Assembly (NCBI GenBank): GCA_037176885.1
Contig: JAWWNJ010000196.1
Coordinates: forward strand, 248,001-312,000
DNA length: 64,000 nt
Direction: 5' to 3'
DNA from: Favolaschia claudopus
Lineage: Eukaryota; Basidiomycota; Agaricomycetes; Agaricales; Mycenaceae
The stretch's first letter is position 1, and each line of letters opens with the position of its first letter. The position numbers and the translations under genes were made by a program. The notes under the pieces were generated by a model that searched no databases, was not told the DNA's origin, and saw only the letters and a program-made list of their open reading frames with translations. Of this stretch, positions 2,941-61,787 are shown piece after piece.

Positions 2941-4551
2941 TTGTGGATATCTTCATTTACAAGTTATCTACATACTAGCAAGTTTGAGAGCACACACTCT
3001 GGCTTGCACGATGTGTAGGATTTTTTCTTTGTCTCAATGGTGGGAAAGGCAAATTTGATTTGCCTTTAGCGTGATTGAACAGCGTTCCCTTCACCTTTTA
3101 AACATGTAGTTATACTTAGTTAGTCCTCAGTATGCTCTCAGTACCCTCAGATGGCCCACAATGCGAGCGAACCCATGTTCAGAGTTCGTCTCAGGTTCTG
3201 AGACAAATTGCCAGTGACAATTACCAAATTGGGACCACCATCAAAATCCTCTTCCTCGCGAATTCAGCCAATACCCGTGCTTGTTCTTCATAAAAGAGCG
3301 TGTCATGCATTCATCCGACTATCTCAAGTCTTGCATGTGATGCTGGGAGGCAACCGAGTTCGAAATTATCTTGCAGCAGCACTTTGATGGCATGATTGAC
3401 GGTTGTCTCATTGACACGGGAATCGCACTTTCGAGTCGTTGACCGTAGAGCTCTTGCATCTCTTCTCAGAAAAATCTGAAAGTTTGGGACAGCATACTTA
3501 TGATGTATGCACAGATCTCTAGCTACTCATCTAGGTTGTTCAACAGAATCGTATGCTAAAAATTGCCATGTGAAAATGTTTGTCTCATTGACCGGTGAAA
3601 TACTGTATGCCTTTGCGTGTGCCTAATAATTCGGGCATGGCCAAGTCCCTCGAGGCCTTACGGAGTAGGTGGCGGTGGTCGCCGGACGTGCTCGGCTCCT
3701 TGTGCTTTCATGTATAGAAAAAAAGGACAGAGGCGAGTGGTGCTCGCGAAGCTTCGGATCCCAATGATCCGAAGTTGAGTCAGCGTCAACTGGTCAAGCG
3801 TGCAATTCCAAAGTCTGCCAATTCGGGCTCTTTTCGCGAGATTTTGGTATCATTCGAAGCGCTACGTCTAGGCGAGTATCCCCTGCGAATCTCAGCCTGA
3901 TCTGAGCAGAAATGAACGAATTTGAGCGACTTTCTTCTCGCTCGAAAAACTGTCAGCCACTCCCACTCAGCGCCGCATAATCCCGAACCGAGTCGGTCGC
4001 AATCGGCATCGGCTTGTCCGGAAATCGCAACAAAGACGAATTTATTCTGAGATGAGTTTGTATTCCGGTTGTTAGAAAATTTGAGAGTATATACTTGAAT
4101 CAGAATTGAGCATTATAGCTTTTTCTCAAATTATTCTATGGGATGCCCCATGTTTCAAGTAGCAACTCGATCGATTCAATTTTCTGTGCCAACGATCCCA
4201 AACAAGCGCAATTCAACTTCGAGTCGTGACGGTGATTCTTCCAAGTGCGAGTCCTAGATGTGTCCCATTGTAACAAATAACGTCGCATATAAACTCTTGG
4301 AAGAGAAGTGTGTGGAAGGAGACACAGTTTCACCCTCGACTGTTTCTCTTTCCCATGTCTTTCCACCAATAGTGAATCCCCGCACCCGTTGGAGGCGATC
4401 ATGGCTGGAGTGACCAGGAGTGACTGTTTTGTGTCATATCAAAATACGTGCGTACAATCGCCTTCTTATGACAGAGCTGACCCTCAGCATCAATTACGGC
4501 AAAGACAGCAAAGACAGAATGAGGTTCTTTGGACGTAGCAAAACCTTTGGT
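2941..4551. other. No gene seen
   Basis: The stretch is AT-richer, with many stops in all frames and only short ORFs. The only structure I noticed is a short perfect hairpin around 3754-3776 (cttcggatc/gatccgaag). Confidence 0.5.
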
Positions 4552-4589
4552 GGCCGATGCCGGACAAAATACGGAACACATATGATATC

Positions 4590-4900
4590 ATCACCTGTCA
4601 CAACCCATCCCGATCAATCCCAGCTTGTCCTCAACCGTCACAGCCTATCCTCAAGCATCCCAATGAATCCTTGGCTAGTCACTCCTTGTCCCTCTCCATC
4701 CTCGTTCATCCTCGTCTCAACCCTGCTTATCCTCAAGATGTCCTAGTGACTTCCCGGTGACTGCCGACTTTACTTGTCCATTGTTTGTCACCGCACATCC
4801 TTGGATGTCCCAACTTGTCCTCAATTTGGTCTGTGTTCACTTGTAAGAGCTATCCTGGACAATACTCGAGTATCTCAAACCATCCCAACCCGATCCATCG
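4590..4900. repeat. Left subterminal cluster of degenerate ~10-bp repeats
   Basis: Units such as ccATCCCgat, aaTCCCagct, tgTCCTCAac and taTCCTCAag repeat roughly every 9-12 bases, all on this strand. A similar cluster in the opposite orientation lies at 21600-21830. Such subterminal repeats commonly bind the transposase; that role here is inferred. Confidence 0.65.
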
Positions 4901-5034
4901 TATCAGATTTGATAATAATCACCACCAATGACCTTCAATCTCTGTATATGCCTAGGCCGTTCTTCGTTCAAAGAGATCTCCTTTCCGTGAAACGTCTCTT
5001 GCTCTGTTTCCTCCTCTTCTGTTCTCCTCCCTCG

Positions 5035-6847
5035 ATGGATTCTGACACCAGACTGAATAATCTGCGGGACGCTTACCACTTGTTGAACGACGATGTTCTG
5101 TCGGCTCTGCATGTAATGGTCGGAGATTCCCCTCGTTTGAGCGCTGTGAGAGATCGAGCGCTAGCGCTGGCATCTGCTGCCGAATTGGTTTCTTTGATTT
5201 CTTGATCCTTTAATGGTGGTTCAACCACAACCCAGCACCGCGCCGTCTTCCCTCCCGATGAGTACGCGACCTTGCAGACTTCCATTTCCACCATGGTTTC
5301 CGCACTCGACCTCGCATGCCATCAATCGATGGATCCACCTGATAGCGCGCCACTTGCTGTAGCTCGTTACATTCGCACCGGAAGACGGGGACGCCCGCGA
5401 ATCGAAATTGATCCCCAATTTTTGAGCGCTGCACTCGAACTTCGCGGTCCCACTGGTATAGCTCCTGAACTCGGAGTATCCTCACGCACTGTTCGTCGCT
5501 CAGCGCTGCGCGCTGGATTGGTTCAGCCTGGAGCTCCGGTCTTCCAGTCTCACATTGATGAACACGGTGCGACTCACATAGTTCATACGTCGACAACGCC
5601 CGCTGTCTCCGTCCTTTCAGACTCCGAACTCGATCAATTGGTCGCTTCGACACTCGAAATCTTTCCTCAGTTTGGGCGGCGTATGATACGAGGTCACCTC
5701 AAGTCCCAAGGCTATCGTGTACCCCGTGAACGCATTACTGCTTCATATTTGCGTGTTCATGGTGCTCCCGCCATCTTTGGTGACCGACAGATTAGTCGAA
5801 AGAAATACAGTGTCCCTGGGCCACTCTCCCTCGCGCATTTGGACGGTCAACACGGTAAGATTCTATCTATATCTCTCTGGTTTCATTGCGTAGTTTCATT
5901 CAACGAATTGAACTAGGACTTATTCGCTATAAAATGGTGATTCACTGTATCATAGACGGCTATTCCCGATTCGTTCTCGGTATCCGAGTACACGATAACA
6001 ACCGAGGTGCGAGTGTTCTTCAGTTGCTGCTGGACGTTATCAGTACACACGGCCGCCCGAGCCGTATGCGTGGAGATCACGGTGTGGAGAATATTGAGGT
6101 TACCATATACATGGAGGAAGTGAATGGCACCGGTCGCGGGTCATTCATTTGGGGAAGGTAATGTTCGTGCGAACTCACATTTGATTTATCTCAGACTCAT
6201 TGGTTCACAGGAGTGTTCACAATACCCGAATCGAACGACTGTGGTACGATGTCACTCACGGCTTCGGAAAGAAATGGAAGACTTTCTTCCTCGACCTTGA
6301 GGCCAACCACGGACTTAATCCCACACGCCCGGGACACATCTGGCTCCTTCACCACCTATTTCTCTCTTCCGTCAATCGTGACGCTCAAGATTGGGCAGAG
6401 GCGTGGAACTCACATCAGCTGACGATACGTCGCAAGCGTGAGCGTAGTCCACGCGACATGTTTCTCTTTGGTATGCTTCGTGAGGGTCCACGCGGAATCT
6501 CGTCGTTCCTCAGGCCTGAGGAGGAGGGAATTGAGGACATCAACGAGTATGGTATCGATTGGGAGGTTGGCAACGAGCCAGACCTACTTGCTCACCTTCT
6601 AGAAAATAATCCACATGAACATGTGGTTAGCAACGACCCTTTTGCGTCTGCCAGCACACCTGCAAATCTTTCGGAGGTTCTCTGCGATCCACCGAACTGT
6701 CCCTTCACTCCCGCGCAGCTGCAACTTCTCGATCAGCACTTGTCTGATTCAGTGGATTTATTTTCTCGTAACATGAATGTGCGTCGGCAAGTTTGGGTCA
6801 GAGCTTTGGAGATCGCAGGGGGTATACAGAGGCGAGAGATACGTTAG
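5035..6847 (+). CDS. Integrase-core transposase (DDx34E), four exons
   Basis: Exons 5035-5187, 5236-5854, 5917-6157 and 6211-6847 join in phase into 549 codons with GT-AG introns of 48-62 nt. The N-terminal third holds a GRRGRPR AT-hook-like basic patch and an HTH-like stretch (LGVSSRTVRRSALRAGL). The rve-type catalytic core follows: Asp in LAHLDGQH (residue 254), IDGYSR, Asp in MRGDHGVEN (311) and Glu in NTRIERLWYD (346), so the triad is DDx34E and complete. The C-terminal region keeps HIWLLHHLFL and RSPRDMF motifs that I associate with basidiomycete integrase-core proteins. The role would be cutting and joining transposon ends in the nucleus. No stop or frameshift is seen, so this copy could be functional. 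IS3EU- or Ginger-type membership is inference. Confidence 0.85.
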
Positions 6848-7038
6848 AATGTAGCTTGTGCCAATGTTAAGCTGCATATTTTGCTGAGGTAGCTTTGCTT
6901 CAATTCGATGAACACTTTCGGCGAGCTGTCCGGGAAATTCCGGACGTCTTCTGCATCACGTTACCGCGTGACTATGTTTGTTGACATCAACCTTCCTTGT
7001 CGTCTCCCGTCATCATCCCGACCACGACCTTCAATTGC

Positions 7039-7910
7039 ATGCCTGAGTTCCAGGTGCTGGCGGCGTTTGGCCATCGCGTCAAACAGGCCCTTAAGAAGAT
7101 CTTCCAGAAGCCCAAGAAATGGCCACAAGGTGCGTCATTGTAGCCTTATTTTCGCGCACGGGTCAACGATCTTAGCAGGGTATCTGGTGGTCTTTCCTCG
7201 TACATGGGCAGAAGGCACTGCGAGGAAGCCCCACGAAACATTCTCTATCGACGTTGGCGACTACACCGATTCTCTTGAGCCCATACCTGTCAAGGTTTCC
7301 GAGTACGACGAGGAGAAACTGCCGACGACTGCTCCTGGGCGATACCTCATAGGCCAAAAGCTCGCTCCCGGTCCCGTTCACGTCGCTATTCGCGGGAAAC
7401 ACCTTGCACTCTGTGCTGGTCACGTATGTCTGCCATTGTTTCTTGGTTTTGTTATGGATTACGCTAATAATTGTACTCGTTCAGCATGCTCTCGTCTGCC
7501 GTTTAGGGCTCGAAGGAAGCATTTTGGTCATGACGCGTTCCGACTATGAAGAGGTCACGTCTGTGTGCGTTCCAGGTAACAATCCGAACAAAAGTAAAGC
7601 AGCGCGGCTGCGTTCCTTCCTCGTTCCCGAAAGATTTGTTGAGCCGGGGGCACGCCTCAAAGACGAGGACTTCAAGGTCAATATTTTGGCAGCGGTGGTA
7701 ATGGAGACGCACGCCATCGTTGTTATCGACTACTCTCGTATTGCCCAGATTCATGTGGTGAGCAGCGCACGGAAGTTCGAGAAGGCCGATTTGCGACCTG
7801 GGTCCGAGGTGTGTGTTTCTTTTATATGTGCTAGTGTTTGAATGACATTTTCTTTATCTGAGATGTGGCGCGATAGATTATGGGCAAAGTGGGGTGGCGC
7901 TCCTGATTGG
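7039..7910 (+). pseudogene. 5' part of the transposon's unknown/AT-hook gene, cut by a retroelement
   Basis: Exons 7039-7129, 7176-7423 and 7485-7808 join in phase. A further exon from 7863 (starting MWRDRLWAKWGG) runs into retroelement DNA at about 7910. The encoded part begins with a basic helix (RVKQALKKIFQKPKKWPQ) and continues with a compact domain of unknown type. I do not recognise the family. It lies on the same strand and 190 bp behind the integrase gene. Its continuation is probably the coding DNA from about 12539, on the far side of the insertion, although the middle may be lost. Linking the two halves is inference from position and strand. Confidence 0.55.
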
Positions 7911-9376
7911 GTCTACCCAATATACTCAATTCGGACCTTAAGAGCTGCAACTTATGCGCACTGAGGTATAACTCCTCGCGCTTGAGTATGTCAATTACTT
8001 TCTTTACATGTTCGACATGCTCCTCGAGTGTATTTGAATAGATAATAATGTCATCCAAATACACGTCCATAAAACGCCCGATATAATCGCCGAATAAGTA
8101 ATTCATGAGTGTTTGATAAGTGGCAGGTGCGTTGCAATCTCCTTGTTGAAGAACAAGACTAACCATGTTGCCGTCTGGAGTGCTCATCGCAGAACGGGCG
8201 ACATGTTCAGGTTCAATCCTGATTTGCTCGTAAGCGTCTTGACCATCGATCAAGGATCTGAATTTACAACGCGAGGCGCGCCGCAATATGCCTTCCATGT
8301 CAGGCAATGGTGAGGTCATCTTCTTTGTGTTTGCATTGCGCGCGCGCAAGTCAACGACGACTCGCAGTTTCAACGAGTCACTCTTGAACTTTTGGAATCA
8401 ATAACATCGGCGCAGTGTTACTTGCGCTGGTAATTTGCCAACGGCCGTTCTTCAGGTAAATTCGACGTTTCTCGTCCCATAAATTTCTTAACGCTTCGGG
8501 ACAGCGAGAAGGTCTCCAAGGAAGAACCTTATTCTCATCGATGAGTGGAATTGTATGATTGATTGCACGAAGACGAGGTAAGCCCGTCTCTTCGGCTGAT
8601 TTACATATAGGTTTAGCATATTCCATAAGCTCATCGCGTGCCGCTTGTAGGTTCATCTCATTCAGTTCAACCGCGCCCGAAAAAACCCGAGCGGTAGCGA
8701 TTCCTTCAAGAGGCAACGAGTTAGCGCTTCCGATGCAAACGCGAGCCGGATTCAAGCCTATGCTCACCTTGTGTTGAAACAACCAAGCCGTTCCCAAAAT
8801 CATGTCGTATCCGCTAAGGTTCGCAACGAAAAAACTTCTTTCCTCTGCGATGTCTTGGTAGCTGAATTTCAGTTTCACAGAGTGATTGATTTTCGATCGC
8901 GATCCTTGAACTGCAAGCTGCAAGGTAATTGGATCATCCAATTCCTTCCGCTTGATTTTGAGCTGATCCACAAGAGTTGTCGAAATTAAATCCTCAAGGG
9001 ATCCTGAGTCAACGAGAGCGCGAACCGGCTCGCCGTTCACTCGAACGACAATAACCAAAGGTCGCGCCACAACTCTGTTAGTGAGTTTTGGCGTGGAAGC
9101 GGTGCGTGCGATTCCCTTCACGCTATCCGCTGGAATTTGAACTCCATGGCAGTTCAAAACGAACTCGCCCTCCACGGCAAAGTCAGGTTCGTCGAATAAA
9201 GAACCAAGGTAACTGAACCGATGAGTCGTTTTGTAACCCCGTTTCGAGTCGTTTTCATGGCGTAGATGCTGAATGTGCTTCTTCAGCACCCATCCAACCA
9301 AGTCGAGCCGCGGGTTCAGCAGCATATCCTCTGATATCTGCACCGCAAGCTCTTGATCTCCGAGTGGAATCGACAC
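7905..9376 (-). pseudogene. Gypsy pol fragment: aspartic protease and partial reverse transcriptase
   Basis: The minus-strand frame from 9376 to 8378 encodes a retropepsin-like protease with active-site DSGS (ALVDSGSLEDLI) and the GYDMILG block, then the start of RT ending LLIPK. It then breaks; the RT continues in another frame from about 8380 to 7905 (VVVDLR, YLDDIIIYS catalytic Asp pair, LRSELSILG). The break is a small indel. RT stops after the SELSILG block, where the retained element ends. The upstream overlap with gag (9316-9376) is in a different frame, compatible with gag-pol frameshifting or with decay. No RNase H or integrase is present, so the copy is not autonomous. Confidence 0.85.
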
Positions 9377-10917
9377 TCAGGTAACTCATATTCATCTGGC
9401 TCTTGAGGCACTCGTGCAATCGTGACATGCTCAAAGACAGGTATTTCTCGACTGACGTCTCGAAAATATTGCTGAATTGCATCGGCTAGCAAGTCCTCGA
9501 TGGGAAAGGCGTGAATCGGTAAGATTTGCTGATACTCAAAGCCCAGAAACAGCGCGCGTTGACGCGCATACCATTGAACAAGATGGAACGAGGGATGACG
9601 AATATGATCAACAGGTAAAGGCACTACAACATCCGAGTACGAATCCTCGATGGTAAACGCATCCGTTGTAGGCCTCAGAACCCGAAAACGAACTGATTCT
9701 CTCTTGTCATCGGGCCAGGGAGTCAGTTCATCGCCTGGATAAGGCTGGAAGAATTCTAACAGCGCGGAAACTGTGTTACCAACAATATCCCCGAGCTGTC
9801 GCTCTCGAGGCGATAATTCACGGGTATGTGGTATTCCATACAATTCTAACGCGCGAGCCCATCGTTCAAGACGATCTTCATAGCTATCTCCGGAGTCGGT
9901 GACCAGAATCGGCATGGGTTCATCGTCATCTGAATCGTCGCTCGGGAGTCGGCTAAATTCTTCTAAGTCTGGCATGCTACCATTCGACGAATCGTTGTCG
10001 TCTGGATCGTCAGACTCTTCAACCGAAGAGGCGCTCACTGTCTTCAAACTAGGCAAGTCATCCATCTCTGAATCAGAGTCACTAACGGCTCGAAGCGAAG
10101 GCGGCGAACCGAGCCGTTCACTAACCGTGTCTAATTCAATCTCCGTGAATGCGAAGTCAGACGTGCCAACTGATCCAGAGAATAGATCGTAAGAATCCGT
10201 TTCAGACTCGAGACCCGCAATCTGATTTTTATACCAGCGAATGAAGTCGAATTCTTGGTTCGAAAGAGTCTCTCTTGCCAAAGTAAAGCACGCAGCGACC
10301 AATCGATCGGAAATAACGATGTTCTCGCCATCCGAGTTGACTTCAAATCGCTCTGAGTGCGTAGGATCACTCGCTTCGATCCATTCGTGATCGTCAAGCA
10401 TAGTTTGAACCATGCTAACTTGAGCATCACCCAGGGGTTGAAGGTATCTCTCCTCATTCACGACGTTGTCGGGGTCGAATCCCCGCATGACAGAACGCAG
10501 TTGAGCGTACCAAAACCCAGGCATGAACCCAGGATCACGCAGTAAGTAATCTTCGATGACTACTTCAACATCGCACTCGTTGTCCATGACAAGATACTCG
10601 TTATCAGACGTGCGGTAAACATTGAATCGAACTTCATCGTAGCATTCGTCTGGGGTCCTATTAATTAAATCCCCAGGGTACGGCTGAGCTTCTTGAAGCT
10701 TCATGACCATTTGGAGCGCATGTAGGTCTGGAAGAGTGTGTCGGAAAAATGTAGTTTCGCTTATAACGGATTGACCCGGATTACCGGCTTGACAGGGATG
10801 CCAAGCCGCGGTAAGCCGCTCCGCAGGAGATTGCAAGCCTTGTCGAGCCGTGACAAGCGGCCCAGCTGCCGCATCCCCGGCATAGGACGGCAACGAGTTC
10901 GTCGAGATATTTGGCAT
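9316..10917 (-). CDS. Gag-like protein of the gypsy element, with an internal duplication
   Basis: This is a 533-codon uninterrupted ORF directly upstream of the protease. It contains two copies of a roughly 100-residue module that begins QPYPGD and has the pattern VRFxVxRxT, D..V.V, RxPxF, WYAxxR, xGF. They are separated by a highly acidic Ser/Asp-rich linker (about residues 245-330). I see no CCHC knuckle. Position upstream of protease makes it the structural (Gag-like) protein of the element. The ATG at 10917 is the first in frame. The duplicated module is described under findings. Confidence 0.7.
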   Translation of the reverse strand: MPNISTNSLPSYAGDAAAGPLVTARQGLQSPAERLTAAWHPCQAGNPGQSVISETTFFRHTLPDLHALQMVMKLQEAQPYPGDLINRTPDECYDEVRFNVYRTSDNEYLVMDNECDVEVVIEDYLLRDPGFMPGFWYAQLRSVMRGFDPDNVVNEERYLQPLGDAQVSMVQTMLDDHEWIEASDPTHSERFEVNSDGENIVISDRLVAACFTLARETLSNQEFDFIRWYKNQIAGLESETDSYDLFSGSVGTSDFAFTEIELDTVSERLGSPPSLRAVSDSDSEMDDLPSLKTVSASSVEESDDPDDNDSSNGSMPDLEEFSRLPSDDSDDDEPMPILVTDSGDSYEDRLERWARALELYGIPHTRELSPRERQLGDIVGNTVSALLEFFQPYPGDELTPWPDDKRESVRFRVLRPTTDAFTIEDSYSDVVVPLPVDHIRHPSFHLVQWYARQRALFLGFEYQQILPIHAFPIEDLLADAIQQYFRDVSREIPVFEHVTIARVPQEPDEYELPECRFHSEIKSLRCRYQRICC

Positions 10918-10919
10918 GT

Positions 10920-12062
10920 TCAGTCACCTATTCTCTCGGTCTGGGAGAGAGGTACCGTCCACAGGGCGTCCGTCTCCGGGGGTTTCCGAAGACCGTTTGT
11001 GGCAAATTCACACGGGCTCCACAACTTCGCCTCACAAATAACGGGGTTGCTGCGGACAGGCTCCCACGCCTCTTCTCCCTCAACCACCACCACTATCGAC
11101 CCCAGCCTTCGTACTCAGGTCACCACCACCACCACCGGCTTTTGCTGACGCATAGCGCAACAGTTCAGGTCAACATAACACTCCACTAGTCGGCTCGGCC
11201 ACGTCGTTGTCGCCGCATTCTTCGCGTGGTCGTCTTCAAACTCCCAGCCTGGTGTTCAGGCGGTAAAGTTTGTGTTGAGCTGGATTATGGTGGTGGTGAG
11301 TTTCTGTCCCTTTTTCTTCATTAACTCGCGTCCCGCTTGCATATCGAGGTGCGTGCTTTATGCTTTTACTCTGACGGTCCGAGTCGCTGATCACTGTCCA
11401 TTATAGGATTTGAACTCAGATCGTCGACAACAATCACCCGTACGCCCGTCATCTTTCTTCCTCGTCTAAACTAATTCGCCGTTAGAGCCGCTTCTCTCCC
11501 TCACCTCCACTCTGTTCCGAATAAACTCTCCAGCGCCATCCGCGAAGCGCGCACGGGCCAACGTCAAACTAGTCTGTTGTTTACCGCGCCCCCGCTGTCA
11601 GGAGGGTCCGCTTATGCCGTAAAGTTGTGGAAAGGGAAAGAGTTTCCCACACACCTTTGCCCTCGTATCGCAGCAACGCAACACAGTTTCGCGAATCTTT
11701 TTGAGTCAGACACATCTATCGGTAAGCATGAATTGGCTTGAGAAGTAAGACAATTTAATTCCGACTTCCAATGTGAGCAATAGCGATTGTTGCTTTGGCC
11801 CAAGGCCAACCCATCAAATTTCTAACTCACCCATTTTGGGGTCTTTTGATTCGGTTCAACCTCGCGTATCTGTCATTTACAGTAAAGAATAACACTGTGA
11901 GTTCAAGAAAATGAGAAACGCGTTCTGAGAACCTCGCAGACGCGTCGTGTTTTGACGTTTACGTAATAGCAGGACCCTCCAACCGCGGATCACAGGAAAA
12001 TGACAGACTAAATAATACACCGCAGGAACGAGGACCAATTTGTCTGTTTACAAGAGACTAAC
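10920..12062 (-). repeat. Gypsy 5' UTR and probable LTR
   Basis: About 10980-11110 holds a CAC/ACC-rich leader (ccaccaccaccaccgg) that recurs inverted at 59990-60180. About 11945-12062 (tttgacgtttacgtaatag ... tgtttacaagagacta) recurs at 47347-47455, which suggests an LTR terminus at 12062. The inner LTR border is not clear from one copy. Confidence 0.5.
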
Positions 12063-12538
12063 GTCAAACTCGACTCGGACCAGGGGCCTGCCAGTCACAA
12101 ACAGAAGCTGCGATGAATATTACACTCAATGTAGTAGTATAACCCACAATGCACTGTTTTTTATTGTAATATGGGGTTTTTTATTGTAATATGGGCCGAA
12201 TGGAGGCGTAAGCTCAAATAATCACCGGTAATCACTGGTATGTCCTCAATCCAGTGCATGTCTTAAGAGGGATTGAGACGGCTGGAGAGGTTCATGACTA
12301 CAGTGGTGGCAAATAGAAATTGCCATGGCTTTTTGGCCAAAATCTTGCTGTATACTTCACCGAATGACCTCGAATAAGATGTAGAGATGGGTATGTAATA
12401 CCTCTGTACCTCTTGGAACCCTCAGCAATTTATCAAGCACTGAGAATGCATCAATAATGGATGGTTTCCGATTTTTGCCATATCCGGAAAAACACAATGT
12501 ACCCTCAGCAAAAAAGTGTCATAATAGGATAAAAGTAC
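12063..12538. other. No gene seen; short tandem duplication
   Basis: This is AT-rich DNA between the LTR end and the next coding exon. A unit of about 21 bp (ttttttattgtaatatggg) is duplicated in tandem at 12158-12197. The rest shows no motif I can name. It may be intron plus target DNA of the split gene. Confidence 0.4.
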
Positions 12539-13630
12539 TTGAAAAACAATGAGACAGACGCCGCCCTCGCTTCTTTGGATGAATGGCATGCGTCTGTCCT
12601 TAGCTCTGAGCAGAGAACTCCGATTCTAGATGTTCTCAACACATCTGACTCTTTTGCGTCGGGTCTGGGGCAACACATGGCGAGTGATCTCCTTTTCGAG
12701 CTTGCAGTACATCCAGATATGCCGAGTTTCGACCTCTGCGCAGATGCTGCGTTATACGCGCGGTTTCGGAACCATCTTCCTAATTTCATGCGCACATTTG
12801 TCTCCGCCTCATACCTGGAACGCTGCGGCCTGGCTGCTAACTCCTCGAATCCGTTCATCTTTAACGAACATTCCCACAATAACTTCATCCGAGGTTTCGT
12901 CAAAGTGTATCGCAAGGCGAAGGTTCACGTCCCCGCCAATCTATACAACTCATATCAGTCTCAGGGTCTTCTGGATCCTGACCATATTATTGGTGCGTCG
13001 CCTTGAACTCTATCGTTATTCAAGAAGCCGATATATTACACACAGGAACCCCATATCTTCAGCCTTGGGACCCAGCCGGGTACACCTATAAGGTCGCCCC
13101 TGTTCGGTTTCTTTCAGACAAAAACAACAACAGGTACACTATCATCTGCGCCCAGCCTCCTGAAACTTGGGAGAGCGCTCATACTCAGGTAAGGTTCAAT
13201 TCAAGGGAAAGGTTTTCGCTCATCCTTGCTTAGGAGGCTCCCTTCGATGATGTATCTGATGCGGGCTTTTCGTCTACGTTGGGACCAGCATCGTTTGTGG
13301 AAGTCTTACGCAACAAGCTTGACCCTGAAGAAATTGCTCGTTTGCGACAGGGAAAACGAGGGCGACCTCGCAAGGTATGTTGCGTTATCCCAATCGCTCT
13401 CCTATTGATATGGTTCTCAGCCTCAACGCACTGGGAATCGTGGACGGCCCAAAAATCCTCTCACTTTGAAGGTTAAACGCCGTATCGAAGCCATCCCACT
13501 TTCGCTGCCTAGATACACTTCAACGGTTGATGAAAAGGAGAATGAGCCGCCGGAATCGGATGAGGGTGAAGCGTTGGAGCCTCAGCCTCGCTACCGGACA
13601 CGTAGTACTCGTAGCCGATACCCATTGTAG
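12539..13630 (+). CDS. 3' part of the transposon gene; C-terminal AT-hooks
   Basis: Exons 12539-12992, 13046-13188, 13234-13374 and 13421-13630 join in phase (948 nt). The frame has no ATG at its left edge, so it continues an upstream exon, most likely the gene broken at 7910. The protein has a mostly helical middle of unknown family and then two AT-hooks (GKRGRPRK and NRGRPKN) that span the last intron, ending in a basic RYRTRSTRSRYPL tail. AT-hooks bind the minor groove of AT-rich DNA, so binding transposon or host DNA is a fair inference. No stop occurs within these exons. Confidence 0.65.
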
Positions 13631-13659
13631 TCCAATACTATACCTGAACTGATATTCCG

Positions 13660-14178
13660 AGCGTTCTTCAGTTCGGAGTATTCTGGTTCAAATAATTCTC
13701 ACGGTTTGAACTCAGGCAATTCTACGCCGTCTGTAAAAATTGTTGGAGCTCCCGAAACTTACTACACACATTTTTAACATACTCCTGCCTTCAACTTAAA
13801 TGTTTCTCACTCCAAAATAAATATTACATCTCGCTAGGGAGGTGTTTTGACGGACCACAAAATAAGCGCAAATAAATCTAACAGTCAGCACTCAGGCATT
13901 TCCACACCGTCACACAAAAATGCAGGAGTCCTCAAAATTAGCTACACATACTCTGGAGATGTTTCTCCCTTCAGATTAATTGGTACGGGTTCATCACTAA
14001 ATCATGCATCTCACCACAACGGCATTTGGTCGGACAACAAAATACGGTCAAACAATTCTGACAGTTTGCACTTAGGCATTTCCTCGCCGTTCAAAAAAAA
14101 TGCCAGGGAGTTCAAAGTAGGCTACACACTCTCTAAACATACCTCCCCTCTCAAATTAATTGGCTCTTCCTCATAGCT
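13660..14178 (+). repeat. 180-bp tandem repeat, about 2.9 units, open in one frame
   Basis: Three units start at an equivalent point at 13711, 13891 and 14071 (ctcaggcaat, ctcaggcatt, cttaggcatt), exactly 180 bp apart. Units are roughly 65-75% alike. In the frame of 13847-14176 the second and third units are open and give a 60-residue repeat with shared words SPLKLIG/SPFRLIG and GIS.P..KNA. The first unit is open for 29 codons in register and then stops. The array lies between the convergent ends of the AT-hook gene and the minus-strand ORF. Confidence 0.75.
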
Positions 14179-14395
14179 AATTCTTGAGACATATATTCTC
14201 CGTTCTTCGCTTTGATGTCACAACTTGTCACACAGTTCGAAGATTTCATTCAACTTAGACCACATCCCTTTTCGCTAAAAACACTACCAGATCTGCATTA
14301 CACCTTACTCAGGCAAGTATTAGTTTGCCGACTATTGGGAATCGAAGGCTAATTCAAAAGTTATTCAAAGTGAGTCGTCGTAACAAATGCATGGC

Positions 14396-14821
14396 TCACA
14401 AAAAAGCAGAATACCACTCCTCGAGTTCCACAATCTCATTCTGCGAGAGGGAGCTATACCCCAATACCATGGTATCTTGCTCCAGAATGCTACCCTTGAC
14501 CAACGCGAATGATATATCTTTGAAGGCGTAGACACCATATTTGCCTTTCGGGCCGAACTCTTCAACACTGGTCACATCAAAGACATGATCTTTGAACGTT
14601 GAGGAAAAATACAACGGCATGAGGGCAGAGCAACGATTCACACCTTTCAAACCAACTAAAGTTCTCTCCCCTGATTCATATACTGTCTCCTCACCAAACC
14701 GAGCCAACTCTCCGGCGCTTAGGCTAGGTAGTTGAGCGTCATTGATATTTGCATTGAGGTCGGTATCGGGGGGAGGGAAATAGAATGGCCGTTTCTTTTC
14801 GATTGACCATGGATTCGACAT
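14396..14821 (-). CDS. Small unknown protein, 141 aa
   Basis: A single uninterrupted ORF starts at an ATG (MSNPWSIEKKRPFYFPPP) 99 bp downstream of the end of the 670-codon gene. I do not recognise it. It has no signal peptide or membrane segment and is rich in acidic and aromatic residues, with a C-terminal EIVELEEWYSAFL. It is on the same strand as the two larger minus-strand genes of the putative 17-kb transposon. It could be a short cargo gene or the last exon of a longer one. Confidence 0.55.
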   Translation of the reverse strand: MSNPWSIEKKRPFYFPPPDTDLNANINDAQLPSLSAGELARFGEETVYESGERTLVGLKGVNRCSALMPLYFSSTFKDHVFDVTSVEEFGPKGKYGVYAFKDISFALVKGSILEQDTMVLGYSSLSQNEIVELEEWYSAFL

Positions 14822-14919
14822 GATAGTCGGAAGGAAGGAGACTTTTTATCTTGTGACAATCCGATACGATCTTTGTGACCCAGTTAATTGATATCAAATT
14901 TTCCGCAGGACAAAAGTAT

Positions 14920-17104
14920 TCAACAGTACGTCATAAGCTGCGCCGACAGTGACCTATGTTGTTGAGGCGGTATGTTATATCCTTCAACAATTCTTTTGAC
15001 ATCCGCCTGGTTAATTCCCCCAACCGTGCGCACCTCAGACTGAGCTTCCCGCCAATCGTCCGGAATTTCTTCAACCCGAAAGAAGTGACCAAAAAACTGT
15101 ATAAGCCCATCTTCCTTCTCTCCAAGATCTTGGCTTAACGCCTGACGCTCCGCCGTTGTGCGTTCCCGAAGATATTGCAACAGAACCCGTGCATTGCTTG
15201 CAAATGTGAGATTGTTAGAATAAGTATTAGGTGGTATGCGGGCCCAAGCTGCGACGTCCTGTTGCCAAGTGCCTCGCGAGCCTCAATTCTGTATTCTGCT
15301 CGCTCGCCGCACCACATCCTGTATGATCAAAACCTGCCTGATGTGCAGATATGCCGTGTTATATCCCGCAGATCCCAACTTGACCAGCCGCGAAGCCTCT
15401 GCGATAAAATGTCGATCAAGAAATGTACAGTTGGAGCGAAGCGCCGAGAGGAATTGACTGAAACTCGAGGTAGCGGCTGGAGTATGAGATCGTGTCGTGT
15501 GCCCCGCCAACGCGGGAGTTTGCGTTCGACTGGATGGCAGTACGAAGGGTGTTGGAGATGGAAGATCCGCCCTTGGTTCAACCTCATGTTCAAGGTGCTA
15601 GCATGTTGAATTCAGTGCGAATAACGGTATAAAATAGATAATCGAATACTCTTACCTGGGGAAAGCAATAAAGTACAAAGAAGGAGCGCTCCTGGGAGAT
15701 ATTGAAATGTTCGAATGTGCGAATACTGACACTGTTATGACTGGCGCGTGGCACAAGAGTCGAAGAATTCAGATGATCGCGCAGCAGTCCAAGCGCAAAA
15801 TATCCATTCTCGTACAGATTGAACTCCTTGTTTGTTTCCACCATGGTTTTTGACCACGCAATGCAAAATGGATTCGAGTCGAGGTTGCTACAGACTTGAT
15901 TAAGGTAACCTGACAGCATATTGTTGCCGTCTCGAAGAGCAGTGATCAAGGCAGACATAGAAGGAGTACTGGATCTAAGCGATACACTGGGTTCGAAAAA
16001 GCCCTTGTATGCTGGATGAACTTCTAGTGGAAAGCCAATGTAGACGGCAGCAATGAGTGGACCGACAGGCGACGGCGTGATGGTTCGGCGCATTACAGCC
16101 AAGCTCCCGTTGCCTGGGCGTGGGGGAACCAGAGGGCCAGGCGGTGCCGAAGTCGATGGAGGAACGATGGGTTGGAGAAGCGAAGCAGTGCCAAATAGAG
16201 ACTCGTCGGTATGGTCAAAAGAAGGAGTAAATGGTGGCGCCCCACGAACTGGTCCAGAGTGAGTGGAGGACGCAGAATTCGTACTGCGAGGGGAGGCCGT
16301 ATTTTGGCGTTGCTCCAGCAAGGCCGAACCATTGGCGAAAAAGAAATTCGGACCAAGATCTACATGCGAGGCTGGAATGACCGGAGATTCTGACGGCGGA
16401 TACGCATGAGGGAGGGTATGGGAATTGGGAGAAGAGACATCAGCTGGCGCAAATCCGAGTCCAAAATCGCCCGCGGAAGAACCCTCTGTCGCCAGAATTG
16501 TGCGTCGAAGTGGAGTATGATAGATAGCCTGGGGAGAGTGAACATGGGAATGGTTTGAAACCTGAGTGGTACTAGGAGGAGTTGATGAACGCTGAATACT
16601 TGAACTGGATCGATCGTCCGTAGCTCCCAAGCGCGGAGTCGGGGAGCTGGACAAAATCCAATCCTCAATAGACTGGTCGAACGCTTCTAGAAGCTGCTGT
16701 GCATACGCCTCTGCTGATTCGCTACTAGTAATCCCAGAATTGTTGATCATTGCTGGAAGATTTTCGCTATGCTCCAACGGGGGATACCGGAATTCACTGA
16801 ACACACAAGCAATTTAGTAGGATCGAGGAGTGGAAAAAACTACGCGCCTCAAATCCCTCATATCGTTTAATTGTTGCGGTCCATGATTGCCTGCACGAGC
16901 ACCTAAAGAAATCGGTCTCAGCATGCGAGTGCTCAGTGCTCAGATTGACGCAAGCAATAACTAACCAGCCTCCTCAGAGATTTGATTGAAAGCTGTCGGA
17001 GGAAGCTCATGCTGGGGACGTGCTCGTCGCTCAAATTCCAACGCAACATCAGCCGGGGGGTTGTCGGCCTGCTGTCGTCTGAGACGTGTCCAAGGTGGAT
17101 TCAT
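14920..17104 (-). pseudogene. 670-codon unknown transposon gene with one in-frame stop
   Basis: Exons 17104-16966, 16902-16848, 16796-15656 and 15597-14920 join in phase to 2,013 nt. Intron 2 would use a GC-AG pair (AG|GCGCGT); the others are GT-AG. Residues of roughly 100-270 are Ser/Pro/Thr-rich. Conserved-looking parts flank this (HGPQQLNDMRDL near the N-terminus; the stretch around ITALRDGNNMLSGYL; and the C-terminal 200 residues). A single TGA at 15283-15285 interrupts an otherwise open last exon, 121 codons before the natural stop. I cannot name the family. It sits 109 bp downstream of the HECT-like gene and probably belongs to the same element. Confidence 0.6.
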
Positions 17105-17212
17105 GCTCAGCAGTCGACGCAATTCACTCCGTATTTATTCAGGTGGAGACATTCGCTTAAAGGCAAGCGACCATGTGCTCGGTATTGAATTTAATAGCCG
17201 CAAGAGTTATCT

Positions 17213-20200
17213 CTACACGCCAGTATACTGCTGTCTACTAGCCAAAAGCTGCCCATGAAAGAATCGCCCAAATTCTGTGTCGCATCCGGCCTCTGGAGTC
17301 TCGCACAGAAGCAGCAAGCGCAGTCTTGCGTTGTTCGAGATAGAGAAGGTTTGGAAGCAAGCGCGGAAGAATACTGAAACGTCGGGGCCGTAGTCTTCGA
17401 TCCCGGTTGCCTCGTCCGTACGGGGAAACTCCTCGTTCCAATCTTGAGTAATCAGGCACTAAAGAAATGTCGTCAGTATGTAGGGAGAGAAGAGAAGAGA
17501 AGAAATGGGTTGAATACTTTGATTTTCCAACTAGGATCGATGGGAACTGCGGCGTAACCAGTGAGGACTGAGAGGAAGAGTTTGGCGCGAAGCAAGGGGT
17601 CGTTCGCGCTGCTTTTATACTCATCATCAATCAACGCGTCGTAAATGTTGCCCGGCAAGGCGGGATGGCCGGGCTCTGTGAGATAATGAGTAATAAATTG
17701 TTTGAGGAGTACGACGGTTTCAGCGTTATCGCCCCACGGATCATCAGTTGGGTTGACTTGGCTGAACTCTATATGCGACAGTAATTCCGCTATGCCTTTG
17801 ATTTGAGAGTTGAATGCAGCGACAATCAGCTCCTTGCACGGTGTAGCAAACCACTAATAACGACTCTCAACGTTGAGATATCTCAAGGAAGACGGGAAAG
17901 ACAGACCTCAAGGATGTGATGCGCTCGGTCTTGTCCACCGAAGGCGTCGATGGACAAATTGAAGCCATACTCGACGTTGAGATAATCCGGGTGATGAGTG
18001 ATGTCCGCAGTTCCGAGAGTGAGAGAGCTAATTACGGTGCCAAGAACTCCGTCTTGTTCCTGCTGAGATCGCTTTGCAGCGATCATTGTAGGCTGAATGA
18101 CCGGTGAGTTCAAATCAATGAATGATTGACTTGACGACTTACATCCATTTCAGATATATTCAGTAAGAACTGGAATTCAACACAATTCGCCGACTGAGAT
18201 GCGTACATCGGCTGATTCAATGGAACTGAGTGGAGAGTTCTAACTATTGCAAGGGAGCTGGTGGTCATAAACGGCGTCAAGAAGTCGAGGTCAAACTTTG
18301 AGGCCGTTTGACGGCCGTCAAAGATGGTAGAGAAAAGGAAAGGAGAGGCGCGGATAGGCGCCCCAATGAAAAGAAAATGGAGGAGAAAGATGAACCCCGT
18401 CGCACGCAACATGCAAGAACGGGCAGGGATTGCAGTACGGGAGGGATGTAGACGAAGAGTGAGATGGAGTTCACGTTCCATCCAATACATGCCGTCAGAA
18501 AGAAGAATCTGCACGGCACGTACCACTGTTTCATTGCGGGGGCCTTTTCCAACAGCTGCGTTCATCGGCTCGTCGCCGATAATGCTAATAGTTGTTAAGA
18601 TTCAAAGATAAGCACAAAAATCACGACTCACATTGAGACCTGAAGTCCGAGAAATGCACTTCCCTCTCCCATCGTCCCCGTGATAGTTGGACGAGGGGCA
18701 CTGAATTGCTCATGTATGATCTCCTTAAATTTAAGGCCGGTTGGTCGTCCACCAAAAACCCAAAGAGAGGCACTGGGAGTTGATTGGTTGCATAAAAAGG
18801 GTGACGTGGGAGGAAAGGACGGACTGGAAACGATTAATCATGTAGTCAGTTGATGTCGGCATGTCGTGTACCATAGCCGCTTGCAGCGGCTCGAGCACGT
18901 TAATTGATCTCAACAACAACAACAATGATGTCGTTGGCAAGATCTTCGTCAGCGAGCATGCTCTCATTCCACTCCCCATACGGGTTTACTTCGCGGTTGA
19001 GAATGAATTGACGAGAAAGTAATGCGAAGACACGAGCACAATAAACCCCGCGCCCAAGACCACAAAGAGCCGCGGCGATCAACGAGCGTGCGGCATCATC
19101 CACAGTGTGAGCTCGGATGTGAACATGGTCGTCCATGGCAAAAGCCAACGTGATATAAGACTGCCATGCTTTGAGTGCATGCGGTCCAGAGCCGGGCATA
19201 TGCGGAAGTGTGAGATCGAGGGCCCCGGAGTCGCCCAGAAATGAGCGGGACTTGCAAAGAAAAGAAAATTGAACGACAGCCAAAAACAAAACAAAAGAGT
19301 AGATAAGCTCTTACCTTGGTGTTGGCTGGAGTGAGTTCCATGCTCGACATCAAGAGTGGCCCAGCCAAAAATGGTTGAATGGTAGACACCGGGACCGTTA
19401 GAGTCGACGCATTCTGGGAGAACAGAGATTATCAGGGATTGAATTTGGATATAGAAGTATAGCAGACCTCTTGCCACTGTTGACGATGAACAGCACGAGT
19501 GACAATCTACGAAAAGAGGTGAGCAAAACTCAAGAGCATAACTCAGTTGTTTCAGGACATACAGGAGTCGAACGTGAAGCGGGAAGTTCACCGCCGCGGT
19601 CAGTTCTAAATGTCGAAGGGATAGGTTCGTCGTCGTCCTGAGACCAGTGAGAAATTGAAGTGCGAATATTTGGGGCTTACCTGATCCATAAGGTCCTCCG
19701 GCACGGGAAACTAATCTCAGTCGGCGACTGTAAAAGAACGTTCATAAACAGAACTCACCTCTTCATCGCTGTCGGATGAAGCGAATAAATCGGTAGAATG
19801 ATTCAGGGACAGAGCAGTCGTTGGCTGCGACGATGGGCAACTGGGACTACATTTGGGTTCGGGATCTTCGCTGAGAGATGCAATAATTGTATGGAGCACT
19901 CGACGACCGAAGCACGGATGGACAAGAACGTGATGAGGGAGGCGATCTCGAGGCTCAAACAACGGGTCGAGAGGAGCGTACAGGTTTCGGTTTCGCGGTG
20001 CTAAAGGGAAAGTTTTTGTTAGAATCAATTGGACGAGAATAAACTACTACGTACCAATCAAAATACAAGGTCCTTCGGCGAGATGATTGGGGGTGTAGCT
20101 GAATGGCGTGCTCGAAATTGCTTGTAAGGTGAACGTAAACCTAGTGAGCGACTTAGGATCCTGGACCCAAGTACGGGTGCCGGACGTAAAAAGAGTTATA

Positions 20201-21470
20201 TCATATCAATATTCAATTCAGATTGCGATGAATAGAGCCCAACAACGCACCGTCCTTTTGGACCGAGGAGAATCCACGCCGTCGTATTGGGTGTCTTGAT
20301 CGCTGGCTCAGGCTGGCACGGAAGGAAGGCAATGTTAAATGAACGGCAGTGGTCCTCGAAGCCATCATCAATGGCTTCGAATATCGGCCCAGATGTGCTC
20401 ACGTCCACAGTGAAGACGAGATTGGCGCGTTTCAAGACATTTTGAACGAGCTCAAGCTCAGCACCATTCTTCCAGGTATATCGAGGTGAGAGATCTAGCG
20501 CATTGCTGTGATCAGAACTCTCGAGCTGAGACGAAGGTTGAGTTAATTCATTATGAATTAAAGACGACGACGTTACTCACCACCTTGGGTAGAATGCAAA
20601 CAGTGATGCTTACTGTAGTGGATACCGCAACCGAGGAAGAAGCAAAGTCGGCCAGTGGCACTGCCGCGCTATCGGAATATGGGCGGGGAGGGCCAGATTT
20701 TCGTTTGCGCGGACTAAGATTTGAACTCGAAGTGGAAGTGCTGCCGGAGGCTCTTTCTGGGTGAAGTGTGCGCTGAATGGAGGCACGGCGATCAGCTTGA
20801 ACAGAAGCGGCGATAGAGGACGATGACGGCCGGGTCTGTTGAGCCGTGGCTGCCGAAGATTCACGAGTATGTTGAACAGAAATTGCAGCGGGACGAGCTA
20901 GACCAGCGAAAGCGGTGACGGGACGATGAGGCGCCGGAGCAGAAGTCGAAGTAGTTGAGACAGGAGCAGGGAGTGGTGTCGTATTGGTACTGTGAAACAT
21001 TGCTTCGAACATTCAGATATGACATGTTTGAAGCTTACCCTTCAATTGAGAGACGGGCATGAGCACCCCGAGGGAGTCGACAGAGACAGACCATACGCAT
21101 ATTCCATGACGTTTCCGGCTAAAGATTAGCTATTAGTAGTCAGATCTCGGTTTTGCACGAGCACTCACAGAGAGAAAACTGCTGCACAAACCATTCTCCG
21201 TCCCTCCACGCGCAAACGAGATGTTCGAGGGTGAAATTTTGACGAGAGAAAGGTGCGCAGTCCAGGGATGGTCGCAGATAAAGCAAAGAACATCAGCTGA
21301 TTCGAAGTCCTTCATCGACCGAGTCAACAAAACCGCTCGACTTTGACCGAAGTATGACTGACTGAATATTTTGGCGATCCATCGGGATTTTCGGACACAA
21401 AGCCCGTGCAAGCTTGAGGGCAATTGGGGAAGGCACAAGCACCGCGAGAGCCGAAAACGAAGAGACGCAT
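17213..21470 (-). pseudogene. Large multi-exon gene, Cys-rich N-terminus and HECT-like C-terminus
   Basis: Starting at the ATG at 21468-21470, the protein opens with a Cys-rich module: GAC-x4-C-x3-C, then, after an intron, CFICDHPWTAH (CxxC-x6-H). A long Ser/Thr/Pro-rich linker with a PRKRK basic patch (about 20640-20990) follows. Further exons lead to a C-terminal region with GTMGEGSAFLGLQ near 18670, GFIFLLHFLFIGAP, SIDAFGGQDRAHHILE, FLSVLTGYAAVPID, and RACFQTF (Cys codon 17357-17359) placed where HECT ligases carry the thioester Cys. HECT identity is tentative; the lobe order fits. About 13 exons; most join in phase, but near 18900, after a GTT run, the frame shifts by one base with no usable intron, so the copy is probably disabled. 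It would act as an E3 ubiquitin ligase if intact. Confidence 0.6.
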
Positions 21471-21599
21471 TGAGGAAGAGCCGGCGTGAATGCAGCAGCG
21501 CGATGGTGGAGGTACTTAAGAGAGGTGCTCGAAGACTGGCATTGATCCGCCTTACGTCGTCGGCTATCACAACTGGCGGCCCGTGAGGATTGCGTTGGG

Positions 21600-21853
21600 A
21601 CGGACAAGGACAGTCCTGTCCTCAGAAGTATCGCGTTGCGCTTGCTTAATCGTTCATCGGGTCGTCACTGGGACATATCACAGTGACATCCCAACCGATC
21701 CCAGGGACATACCGGGATCTGTTGGGACAACATCAGGATCAGCTGGGATAGGCGGGGATGGGCGAGGATTGATGAGGATGCGCGGGGACAGAGGATGACG
21801 GCTTGGGACTGGTAGTGACAGGTAAAGTAAATTATTTTTGTCCGATGTCGGCC
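21600..21853. repeat. Right subterminal repeat cluster and inverted terminus
   Basis: Units of the type gGGGAtgg, gAGGAtt and tGGGAtc repeat at 9-12 bp spacing, the reverse-complement sense of the left cluster. The cluster closes with ggtagtgacagg and then ttttgtccgatgtcggcc, which mirrors the left end at 4552. Confidence 0.65.
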
Positions 21854-22338
21854 TTCATAAAAACCACGAATAATTTCATTCTGCACAGGCGAATAGGCAA
21901 GCTATGACTTTTTATATCCCAAAAATCTTGAAAAAGTTCAATTTCGTTGTCTACATTTTATTTCGGGTCATTCGGCTCAGAAACGCACGAGAAACACCGC
22001 GTGCAGATCTTTCCATCGCCACTGTATGTACAGACTAATGTTGCATGTCTTGAGTACTTATGTCCACAAGCTGTCAGCAATGTGTCGACTCCATTCCAAC
22101 AATAGACGAGGTCAGTAGACTGATTGTGTACATCTTCGAGTGAGGATGAGCTAGTCATTAACACACGCCTTGATGATTTTATCGATACGTGTCAATCAGC
22201 GATATGTGTGATTTATCAATACGTGTGTTGTTTTCATATGGACCAAGGTGAGAGGCAATCACTTGAGTCATATTGGGTCGGAGCTCTGCGGATGTTCTAT
22301 AAAATTTATCACAACCAAAGATTTTATCCGTAGCAGTC
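21854..22338. other. No gene seen upstream of a small gene
   Basis: Only short ORFs occur. A TATA-like tctataaaattta lies at about 22295, some 45 bp before the ATG at 22339, and could serve the next gene. Confidence 0.35.
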
Positions 22339-44769: not shown

Positions 44770-45340
44770 TTTCCGACACTCTGCCGAAAAAAATTATAGC
44801 AGTTCACTCTGCCAAGTAATGAATCGTTCATTATATGAGTTGAAGCTAGCTCGTAATAGCTCTCCGAGACATACTACACTTGGAAATCTTAGCTTTGATG
44901 AATGGTTCACTTGGTATACGCTATTCAGTTCAAGTGTATGTTTTGACCTCACTTTCTTTAATCGGGGATTTACTATACAAAGTCTTGGTCGTATGAGATG
45001 TTACACTACTCTAAGACACTCTCCTAGTCTTTTCCTTCGATTCGAGTGCTCGGGCATCCTAATCGGTCACCATCTACTCAAGATATATTCTATACGTATG
45101 ATACGCAGTGCTACTTGGACCTAAACCTCCTAACCTCCGTGTAACGGTGACGTCTAAGTGGATTACGCCTAGACGGTATGTTTTTCTTTTACGTTCCCTG
45201 GCCGAGAAGAGAAACCGAAACCTAACCTAAAGCCCTATCCCTGACCATTCTAACCTAACTTATAATAGATTTATCGACTATCATAAATCTTGTAGAGTCT
45301 GACTTGGTGAGACTACATAGATGCAGAAGAAGCTCACCCT
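44770..45340. other. No gene seen
   Basis: A 101-codon + ORF (44819-45124) has unremarkable composition and no supporting features. Sequence is AT-rich. Confidence 0.35.
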
Positions 45341-45343
45341 TTA

Positions 45344-46401
45344 CAGCAGTTTGCAGATGTAATGACACCACGTCGCATCACATGAGAAGAAAGCACAAAA
45401 ACACGTCTTCTTCTCTCCTTCGTATCTCTCTCGAGTCGTTTCGACGACAAATAGCATGATTTTGGTATGGGAGGACTCGCCGTAATCCGGGCTTCAAAAC
45501 GACTATCTTTTATCGCCGAAACCCTGACTTCATTTTGGCCGACATCCACCTTGCTCGTCATCGTCATCGCCGTCTTGGACGCAATTCTGGAGAGAATGCC
45601 TCGTGTGTAGGCGCGTTTGGAATGCATTTCCAGTCGCTTTCGATCTATATGCATTTGTAGCGCGGATTCCGGTTTGATAACTTATTGTTCTCGTGTCTCT
45701 TCTCTACTTCCACCGTGATCACAGTTTTGTTCTCTGGTTTTGTTCCTTCTCAGGCGCGCGTCACAATTTCCTGCCGTGCCCGTGCGGTGTATAGCACCAG
45801 TGGGGTGCGTCCTCCAAAGGAAAGGACAGTAATTTTTCGCCAGATTTCGCTGTGGCGTATTCTATTTTTTGCTCGTTTGCCACTGGAGTCTGCGTGGCTT
45901 ACTTACTATTATTAGCCACTTTGTACCACATATACAATACTAAGCATGCCAGATGACTATTTTCTGGAGATCTCAAGACTCATTCTGTGTGCATAACGCT
46001 GCTATGCACATGGAGTAAGATCAAATGGTCCCAAGCAAATTATTCTGATAAGTTGTTATGTACACCCGGCAGCCACAATTTAAACTTGCACATATGCCAA
46101 GAGCGACCAAAAATGCCTTCTAAGTGCGCCTACACATGGGCGATTCCGTCCAGAATTACGCCGAGGAGCGCGACAACGTTGGAGAAGCTGGATGTCAAGT
46201 GGATGTCGGCCAAGATCAAAGTCGGAATTTTGCCAATAAAATACCAGCGTCTTAAGGCCCGGATTAAGGCGACCTCATACATACAAGAATAATTGATATT
46301 GGGCAAGAAACGAGCAAGAACGAGGCGATACAAGAAGACGTGTTTTTCGTGCTTTCTTTACATGTGATGCGACGTGGTGTCATTACATCTGCAAACTGCT
46401 G
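45344..46401. mobile_element. 1.06-kb foldback TIR element, copy 1
   Basis: Ends are CAGCAGTTTGCAGATGTAAT inverted, flanked by TA, as in Tc1/mariner insertions. The two halves are diverged inverted copies of each other over some 300 bp: the minus-strand ORF at 45334-45654 and the plus-strand ORF at 45987-46292 share words (SK.AYT, SRI, LDV, ARI.A). The centre is unique. No known transposase. A second, nearly identical copy is at 60738-61785 in reverse orientation. Confidence 0.85.
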
Positions 46402-55064: not shown

Positions 55065-55378
55065 GCAAATATTCGTATTAAGTGCAGTAGGGCAAAATTT
55101 GGGAATCCGGCCCGGCAAAGGCTTTAGAATCGTTCCATAAATGTGCTCAGAAAGCTGCGGTTTGAAGTGAAGGAGGAGATAGATTTTCGGCGCTCGGGGC
55201 GCTTTTGGGGGATGGAAATGATCGCGACAGTAAAAAACTATCTCCTCCCTCAATTTGGAGCCAATATTTCTGAAATTTTGGGAGTGCATTCCCAACATGT
55301 ATTCGAGGATTTTGCCGGGCCAGATTCTGTAATTTCGCCCTACTGCATTTAATACGAATATTTGAGCCCGAACGCTCT
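55065..55378. repeat. Foldback insertion in mariner-like DNA
   Basis: aaatattcgtattaagtgca at about 55068 pairs with its reverse at about 55340-55360, and ggaggagatag at 55172 pairs with ctatctcctcc at 55238. The whole is an imperfect hairpin of about 310 bp at the end of a transposase fragment. Confidence 0.6.
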
Positions 55379-55483
55379 CGGAACCATCGTTTGACCCAGG
55401 CCCAGAAATATTCAATCGGATTCATTTCTGGGTGAAACTTGGGCAAGAAATGGCAGACCATGCCAGGTGTCGCCTTAATAAAC
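55360..55483 (-). pseudogene. C-terminal fragment of a Tc1/mariner-type transposase
   Basis: The minus-strand frame reads ATPGMVCHFLPKFHPEMNPI then EYFWAWVKRWFRERS. The HPEMNPIEYFW motif holds the last acidic catalytic region of DDE_3 transposases. The frame then enters the foldback repeat and loses similarity. Upstream parts were not found. Dead fragment. Confidence 0.75.
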
Positions 55484-61785: not shown

Positions 61786-61787
61786 TA

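Follow-up and report, generated by a model that had tools for sequence, protein, structure and literature searches.

Paired ends, target-site duplications and recurring cargo genes point to a group of multi-gene DNA transposons with recent mobility in Favolaschia claudopus

Introduction

IS3EU/GingerRoot transposons, as described in the portion of PMC10045372 drawn on here, encode a DDE integrase-type transposase and produce a 6-bp target-site duplication (TSD), and complete IS3EU elements always have TA..TA termini. The IS3EU elements of rust fungi also have a 6-bp TSD, with ends of the form TAYGG..CCRTA, and carry a TET/JBP gene between the transposase gene and an opposed alpha-kinase gene (PMC12730594, in the part of its text used here). 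Here we describe an element of 17,314 bp at positions 4546-21859 of a 64,000-nucleotide stretch of the Favolaschia claudopus genome (the window; C196:248001-312000 in our contig numbering). It probably belongs to a group of multi-gene DNA transposons that comprises several families in this fungus, has moved recently and is IS3EU/GingerRoot-like in character. A first-pass annotation made from the sequence of the window had proposed a mobile multi-gene transposon pairing an integrase with a HECT-like gene; end pairs, TSDs, empty sites and gene co-occurrence support that overall reading.

The element is IS3EU/GingerRoot-like in its TSD length and, by integrase type, in its transposase. We do not file it as IS3EU because its left terminus, TT, breaks the stated TA..TA rule; the difference, TT..TA versus TA..TA, was established by description rather than by sequence (PMC10045372, same portion). 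Its termini read TTTGG..TCATA and thus differ from TAYGG..CCRTA at one position per side. With the fungal IS3EU elements, as far as the text of PMC12730594 used here describes them, it shares the 6-bp TSD, a multi-gene organization, an opposed cargo gene and a putative DNA-modification enzyme gene in between. This parallel of an opposed block with such an enzyme between is striking. The cargo itself differs: it comprises a HECT-fold gene, a MAPR gene, an orphan gene (gene 4) and, in a subset of copies, a gene for a NEIL1-type glycosylase, a recurring set that is hereby added to a transposon type described with TET/JBP and alpha-kinase genes. The main text of PMC12730594 has no occurrence of the terms HECT, ubiquitin, progesterone, AT-hook, Mycena or Favolaschia, and the open-licence literature, searched through titles, starts of abstracts and term counts, yielded no report of transposons that carry HECT, MAPR or glycosylase genes as cargo; for the host, Mycena and rva_4 it yielded just the paper on the genome.

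Results and Discussion

Element ends and mobility

Conserved ends that occur in pairs, TSDs of 6 bp, unoccupied target sites and near-identical copies at different sites were observed directly in the F. claudopus genome (264,566,041 bases in 460 contigs; genome match counts are lower bounds throughout). The boundaries were set by comparison with other genome copies. The first-pass annotation had recognized the transposon itself but placed it at 4552-21853; the true ends lie 6 bp further out on each side and are flanked directly by the TSD copies AAAACC at 4540-4545 and 21860-21865. The left terminus and inverted repeat, TTTGGTGGCCGATGCCGGACAAAA (4546-4569, plus strand), has 67 genome matches with at most 2 mismatches, and the right terminus, TTTTGTCCGATGTCGGCCTTCATA (21836-21859, plus strand), has 82; reversed controls gave 0 for each. 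Compared as inverted repeats, the two agree at 18 of 24 positions, a level attained by none of 400,000 pairs of 24-mers drawn at random from the window. The inverted GGCCGA..CGGACAAAA ends and the shared CCTGTCAC word that had been read from the sequence are indeed present at both ends of the element. So are clusters of degenerate repeats in opposite orientations, at 4606-4887 (plus) and 21597-21797 (minus). The motif YRTCCY, picked post hoc after inspection of the sequence, occurs 14 times forward and 0 times reverse in 4546-4960 (means of 3.3 and 0.2 in 2,000 first-order resamplings) and 10 times reverse and twice forward in 21591-21859 (means of 1.9 and 0.3).

When left and right ends were paired across the genome, 47 of the 67 left ends could be matched with a right end at a distance of 3.3-17.3 kb in the same orientation. 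The transposase gene lies within 37 of these 47 pairs, the MAPR gene within 35 and the HECT-like gene within 34. Ten pairs contain none of the three and are probably non-autonomous derivatives; these gene-empty pairs (C1, C26, C36, C79, C82, C95, C119, C124, C155 and C206) measure 3.3-11.8 kb and have the left end TTTGGTGGCCCATACC. In the 24 inspected pairs the ends read TTTGG.. on the left and ..CATA on the right, letters that the search patterns contained with up to 2 mismatches allowed.

An exact 6-bp TSD, the fixed-length duplication that the first pass had suggested looking for, flanks 22 of the 24 inspected insertions. These comprise the copies in the window and on C254, C92 and C137 (4 of 4) and 20 pairs sampled from the 42 not previously inspected (18 of 20, with C103 and C166 lacking the repeat). 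The C59 copy occupies the same site as the window element and was left out of the count as a duplicate. From the 20 sampled pairs we drew 12 joined-flank queries, 8 of which matched an empty site across the junction: C17, C48 and C122 had one match each (99-100% identity), C53 and C19 two each, and C75, C139 and C117 more than two in repeated DNA (92-100%). For C124, C153, C206 and C90 no empty site was found among the 40 of 870 candidates scored. Transposase genes with identical scores lie at several loci (for example C19, C122 and C153), but their TSDs differ, which suggests recent movement. Movement by the DDE transposase with a 6-bp stagger is well supported. The near-identical copies and empty sites also make this genome suited to the study of cargo-driven spread and genome growth in Mycenaceae.

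If the 17-kb unit were a chance assembly of unrelated repeats, the nested insert with retroelement genes that it contains (see below) would be in keeping with such an origin. Paired ends, TSDs and empty sites refute this explanation, as does the same gene order in dozens of copies, and we regard its probability as negligible.

Two loci contain arrays. At C54:232404-257578 two tandem elements, each with all searched features, are separated by ~35 bp, and at C40:662101-710213 three right ends occur at ~24 kb spacing, which suggests tandem duplication.

Transposase and gene order

The transposase gene (5035-6847, plus strand; exons 5035-5187, 5236-5854, 5917-6157 and 6211-6847) encodes 549 amino acids and matches the Pfam family PF24764, rva_4, with an E value of 1.6e-55; the match to rve is under the cut-off of that family. 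Its DDE triad consists of D254, D311 and E346, and 34 residues separate D311 from E346. The DDx34E motif is confirmed, as first reported, and the model is open across four exons, the ends of which are approximate (the exon-joining script over-predicts beyond conserved blocks). The 140 listed genome matches of this gene correspond to 64 loci.

An rve-type integrase together with a 6-bp TSD, which is also the length given for Polintons in the portion of PMC10045372 used here, might indicate a Polinton/Maverick or another self-replicating integrase element. However, the transposase belongs to rva_4, and polymerase, ATPase and capsid genes were not recognized among the modelled genes, part of the frames having been scanned. 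No DNA polymerase B was seen in intron-blind Pfam scans of the three minus-strand frames of 12500-21601 and of selected gene models. We therefore consider a Polinton-like origin very improbable.

The genes form two opposing blocks, as the first-pass annotation described: the transposase gene and gene 2, the AT-hook gene (7039-13627), on the plus strand, and the MAPR gene (14309-14821), gene 4 (14923-17104) and the HECT-fold gene (17213-21470) on the minus strand. The recurrence of the cargo order, the co-occurrence of cargo with transposase and the low ratios of nonsynonymous to synonymous substitution (dN/dS) are direct observations. Transposase, MAPR, gene 4 and HECT-like genes occur together in 35 clusters, and 27 clusters plus one double cluster show the order left end, transposase, MAPR, gene 4, HECT, right end. 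The same order and strands are found in families with transposase matches ~75-91% identical to that of the window. At 41 of the 64 transposase loci a convergent HECT-like gene lies 1.7-11.3 kb downstream, where simple arithmetic on the counts gives an expectation of ~0.2 by chance. The MAPR gene, found at 54 or more loci, is present on the opposite strand at 49 of the 64. Integrase genes without a HECT-like gene inside the same termini, which the first pass held would reveal a chance assembly, do exist but are rare: the HECT-like gene is present in 34 of 37 transposase-bearing pairs, and it is missing from the paired-end copies C48 and C52, which measure 11.04 kb and retain MAPR and gene 4, and from C21, which has an internal deletion and measures 4.75 kb. 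Where computable, dN/dS was 0.04-0.24 for the window versus the families on C92, C254 and C137, with codons taken from automatic tblastx blocks rather than curated exons; gene 2 was compared with C92 only, and the transposase comparison with C137 had saturated dS and was not usable.

Several observations weigh against a mobile unit with a fixed cargo. The co-occurrence counts include near-identical copies and thus do not represent independent events. Except for the MAPR gene (versus C92 and C254), dS is near saturation and the ratios are rough, so that they show constraint and not its exact strength. Twenty of the 67 left ends and 35 of the 82 right ends had no partner in the genome-wide end search, and 11 of the 64 transposase loci (identity up to 61%) had no detected MAPR or HECT partner. 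The glycosylase gene occurs at only 16 of the 64 transposase loci, and 45 of the 62 places where gene 2 was found are away from this transposase, one of them (C21:1429869) adjoining other element genes. No other element feature lies near 17 of the at least 66 HECT-like loci and 3 of the at least 46 gene 4 loci. The HECT-like protein has no HECT match among Pfam or PDB sequences at E values up to 10, and its structure model is weak, with a mean predicted local distance difference test score (pLDDT) of 56.5.

Some of these data would suit a different explanation, in which the cargo consists of host genes captured by chance that ride as passengers and have no role for the element. The copies without HECT on C48 and C52, the 10 of 47 paired-end copies without transposase, MAPR and HECT, and the 45 glycosylase places away from this transposase could all be so understood. 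Chance capture does not, however, account well for an order and strand arrangement shared by families at ~75-91% transposase identity, for dN/dS values of at most 0.24 across three families with synonymous sites mostly near saturation, or for the lack of any solitary MAPR gene (0 of 54). We consider passenger genes improbable and favour a cargo that belongs to the transposon.

The glycosylase-fold gene and its nested insert

The first-pass annotation called gene 2 an AT-hook gene. Two AT-hook-like motifs are present; what that label missed is that, by predicted fold and motifs, the product is a NEIL1/Fpg-type DNA glycosylase. The predicted fold has an N-terminal beta-sandwich and an H2TH domain, as in Fpg/Nei glycosylases such as MutM and NEIL1. 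In those enzymes the N-terminal Pro and Glu are catalytic. The window copy begins Met-Pro-Glu-Phe, and among 27 sequences P2 is kept in 26 and E3 in 24. Further similarities to Fpg/Nei are a conserved Arg-Gly-Lys and an H2TH-like motif; differences are the length (549 amino acids in P0055) and the AT-hook-like motifs near the C-terminus. All 21 PDB profile matches at E values up to 10 were to Fpg/NEIL proteins (best E 0.016).

There is a second possibility for this protein. It could be a DNA-binding scaffold that targets the transposase through its AT-hooks and H2TH domain, the N-terminal Pro-Glu being a relic. In line with this, Pfam matches are weak: 5 of the 27 sequences match H2TH, with E values no better than 0.01, and 4 match Fapy_DNA_glyco, with E values no better than 0.14. 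Identity to NEIL1 is 16-18% in the listed rows. Against it, the Met-Pro-Glu, Arg-Gly-Lys and H2TH Gly-x-Gly/His-Pro positions are each kept in at least 23 of the 27 sequences. The scaffold is a possible reading that carries some weight, but not the one we favour, which remains a predicted glycosylase.

Gene 2 is interrupted by a 4,633-bp nested insert (7916-12548, minus strand) that is absent from the same-site C59 copy and lies outside the element proper. The first pass missed this insert and took the 17 kb as one unit; without it the element would be ~12.7 kb long. The insert encodes a retroviral-type aspartyl protease (by Pfam) and a truncated Ty3-type reverse transcriptase (by manual frame reading). 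Direct repeats of at least 40 bp are absent from its ends, and a target duplication is not clear. With an overlap of only 1 bp at the C59 junction as well, a clean long-terminal-repeat insertion is ruled out. The insert may represent either a retroelement in decay or a complex insertion.

The 121 listed matches to gene 2 correspond to 62 places, 17 of which, on 16 contigs, have a transposase gene at most 12 kb upstream; two of the 17 come from the window's own element. In the C254 (L040, 2500-5900) and C137 (L044, 3100-7400) copies other open frames lie between the transposase and MAPR genes, and one frame from this slot had no Pfam match. The occurrence of gene 2 away from this transposase appears to resemble the way in which different types of transposon share TET/JBP genes. 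One such homologue (L089, C32:1000700-1010600; 8 equal-scoring copies) lies near a DEAD helicase match (E 1e-13) and another (L090, C12:2417500-2427400; 3 equal-scoring copies) near a Helicase_C match (E 0.003, below the cut-off). Neither has an end of this element inside the 9.9 kb examined. Further equal-scoring copies on C169, C293 and C309 all begin at base 22086 of their contig and may be subtelomeric.

The HECT-fold gene

The earlier label of a HECT-like gene holds by predicted fold and fails by sequence: with neither a Pfam nor a PDB sequence match, identity by sequence was dropped. The Cys-rich stretch forms the N-terminal part of this same gene, so the separate Cys-rich gene of the first-pass annotation was not borne out. 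The predicted structure contains the whole bilobal HECT fold; among the structure alignments listed, identity is 6-14%. A Cys-Phe pair (C975-F976 of P0009) lies near the C-terminus, and C975, which was placed by sequence alignment rather than by residue-by-residue superposition on the HECT C-lobe, is conserved in at least 90% of 32 rows (32 of 52 matches aligned). The protein thus resembles HECT E3 ligases in its predicted whole fold and conserved C-terminal Cys-Phe, and differs from them in its Cys-rich N-terminus and in lacking a match at the sequence level.

The MAPR gene and gene 4

The MAPR nature of one of the minus-strand genes had been overlooked. This gene (cytochrome-b5-like, Dap1/PGRMC-type; last exon modelled) matches PDB entries 1t0g, 1j03 and 4x8y with E values of 2e-10 to 7e-8; the first two are an Arabidopsis-type steroid-binding, cytochrome-b5-domain protein. 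These E values are those of the window copy and include the match to PGRMC1; the Tyr of its GxYGV motif aligns with the PGRMC1 Tyr that serves as heme ligand. No Pfam match was obtained at E values up to 10 for the spliced C254 copy. Unlike what holds for MAPR/Dap1/PGRMC1, all 54 places lie near element features, in an intron-blind search that may miss cellular Dap1. The dS of the MAPR gene is 0.85 versus C92 and 0.69 versus C254, well under the 1.7-2.6 of the other genes, which suggests gene conversion or exchange between families.

Gene 4 is a conserved orphan with no Pfam match and at least three homologues in a protein search. In Mycena olivaceomarginata the homologues of gene 4 (P0090) and of the HECT-like gene (P0028) are both listed with a 452,500-base contig, the single candidate case of linkage across species.

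Proposed role of the cargo

Movement would begin with binding of the DDE transposase to the oppositely oriented subterminal repeats, after which it would join the TT..TA ends to the target strands with a 6-bp stagger. The cargo would serve the element rather than the host. The leading guess is defence against silencing, by base excision of marked cytosines and by modification of host proteins by the HECT-like protein. Most likely, the AT-hook glycosylase would act on the DNA of the element and excise bases that are modified or damaged, as a base-excision counterpart of the TET/JBP oxidases that other fungal transposons carry, and the HECT-like protein would modify or remove host silencing proteins or tune the level of transposase. 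The MAPR protein and gene 4 may have assisting roles. Should methylated or oxidized cytosine prove to be a substrate of the glycosylase, base-excision demethylation would be encoded directly by transposons. The idea can be extended to fungal IS3EU-like transposons in general, which would carry a counter-silencing kit: an AT-hook NEIL1-type glycosylase removing methylated or marked bases, and a HECT-type ligase and MAPR protein disarming or retuning host factors, as a base-excision alternative to TET/JBP with cargo shared between unrelated repeat families. In this full form we hold the proposal to be rather doubtful.

Other repeats in the window

The window contains further repeats outside the element. 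The open frames at 45334-45681 (minus) and 61453-61788 (plus) share an identical protein start in inverted orientation and belong to a separate repeat. The open frame at 55147-55485 (minus) has an NPIEYFWA-type motif, which resembles one of Tc1/mariner-like transposases.

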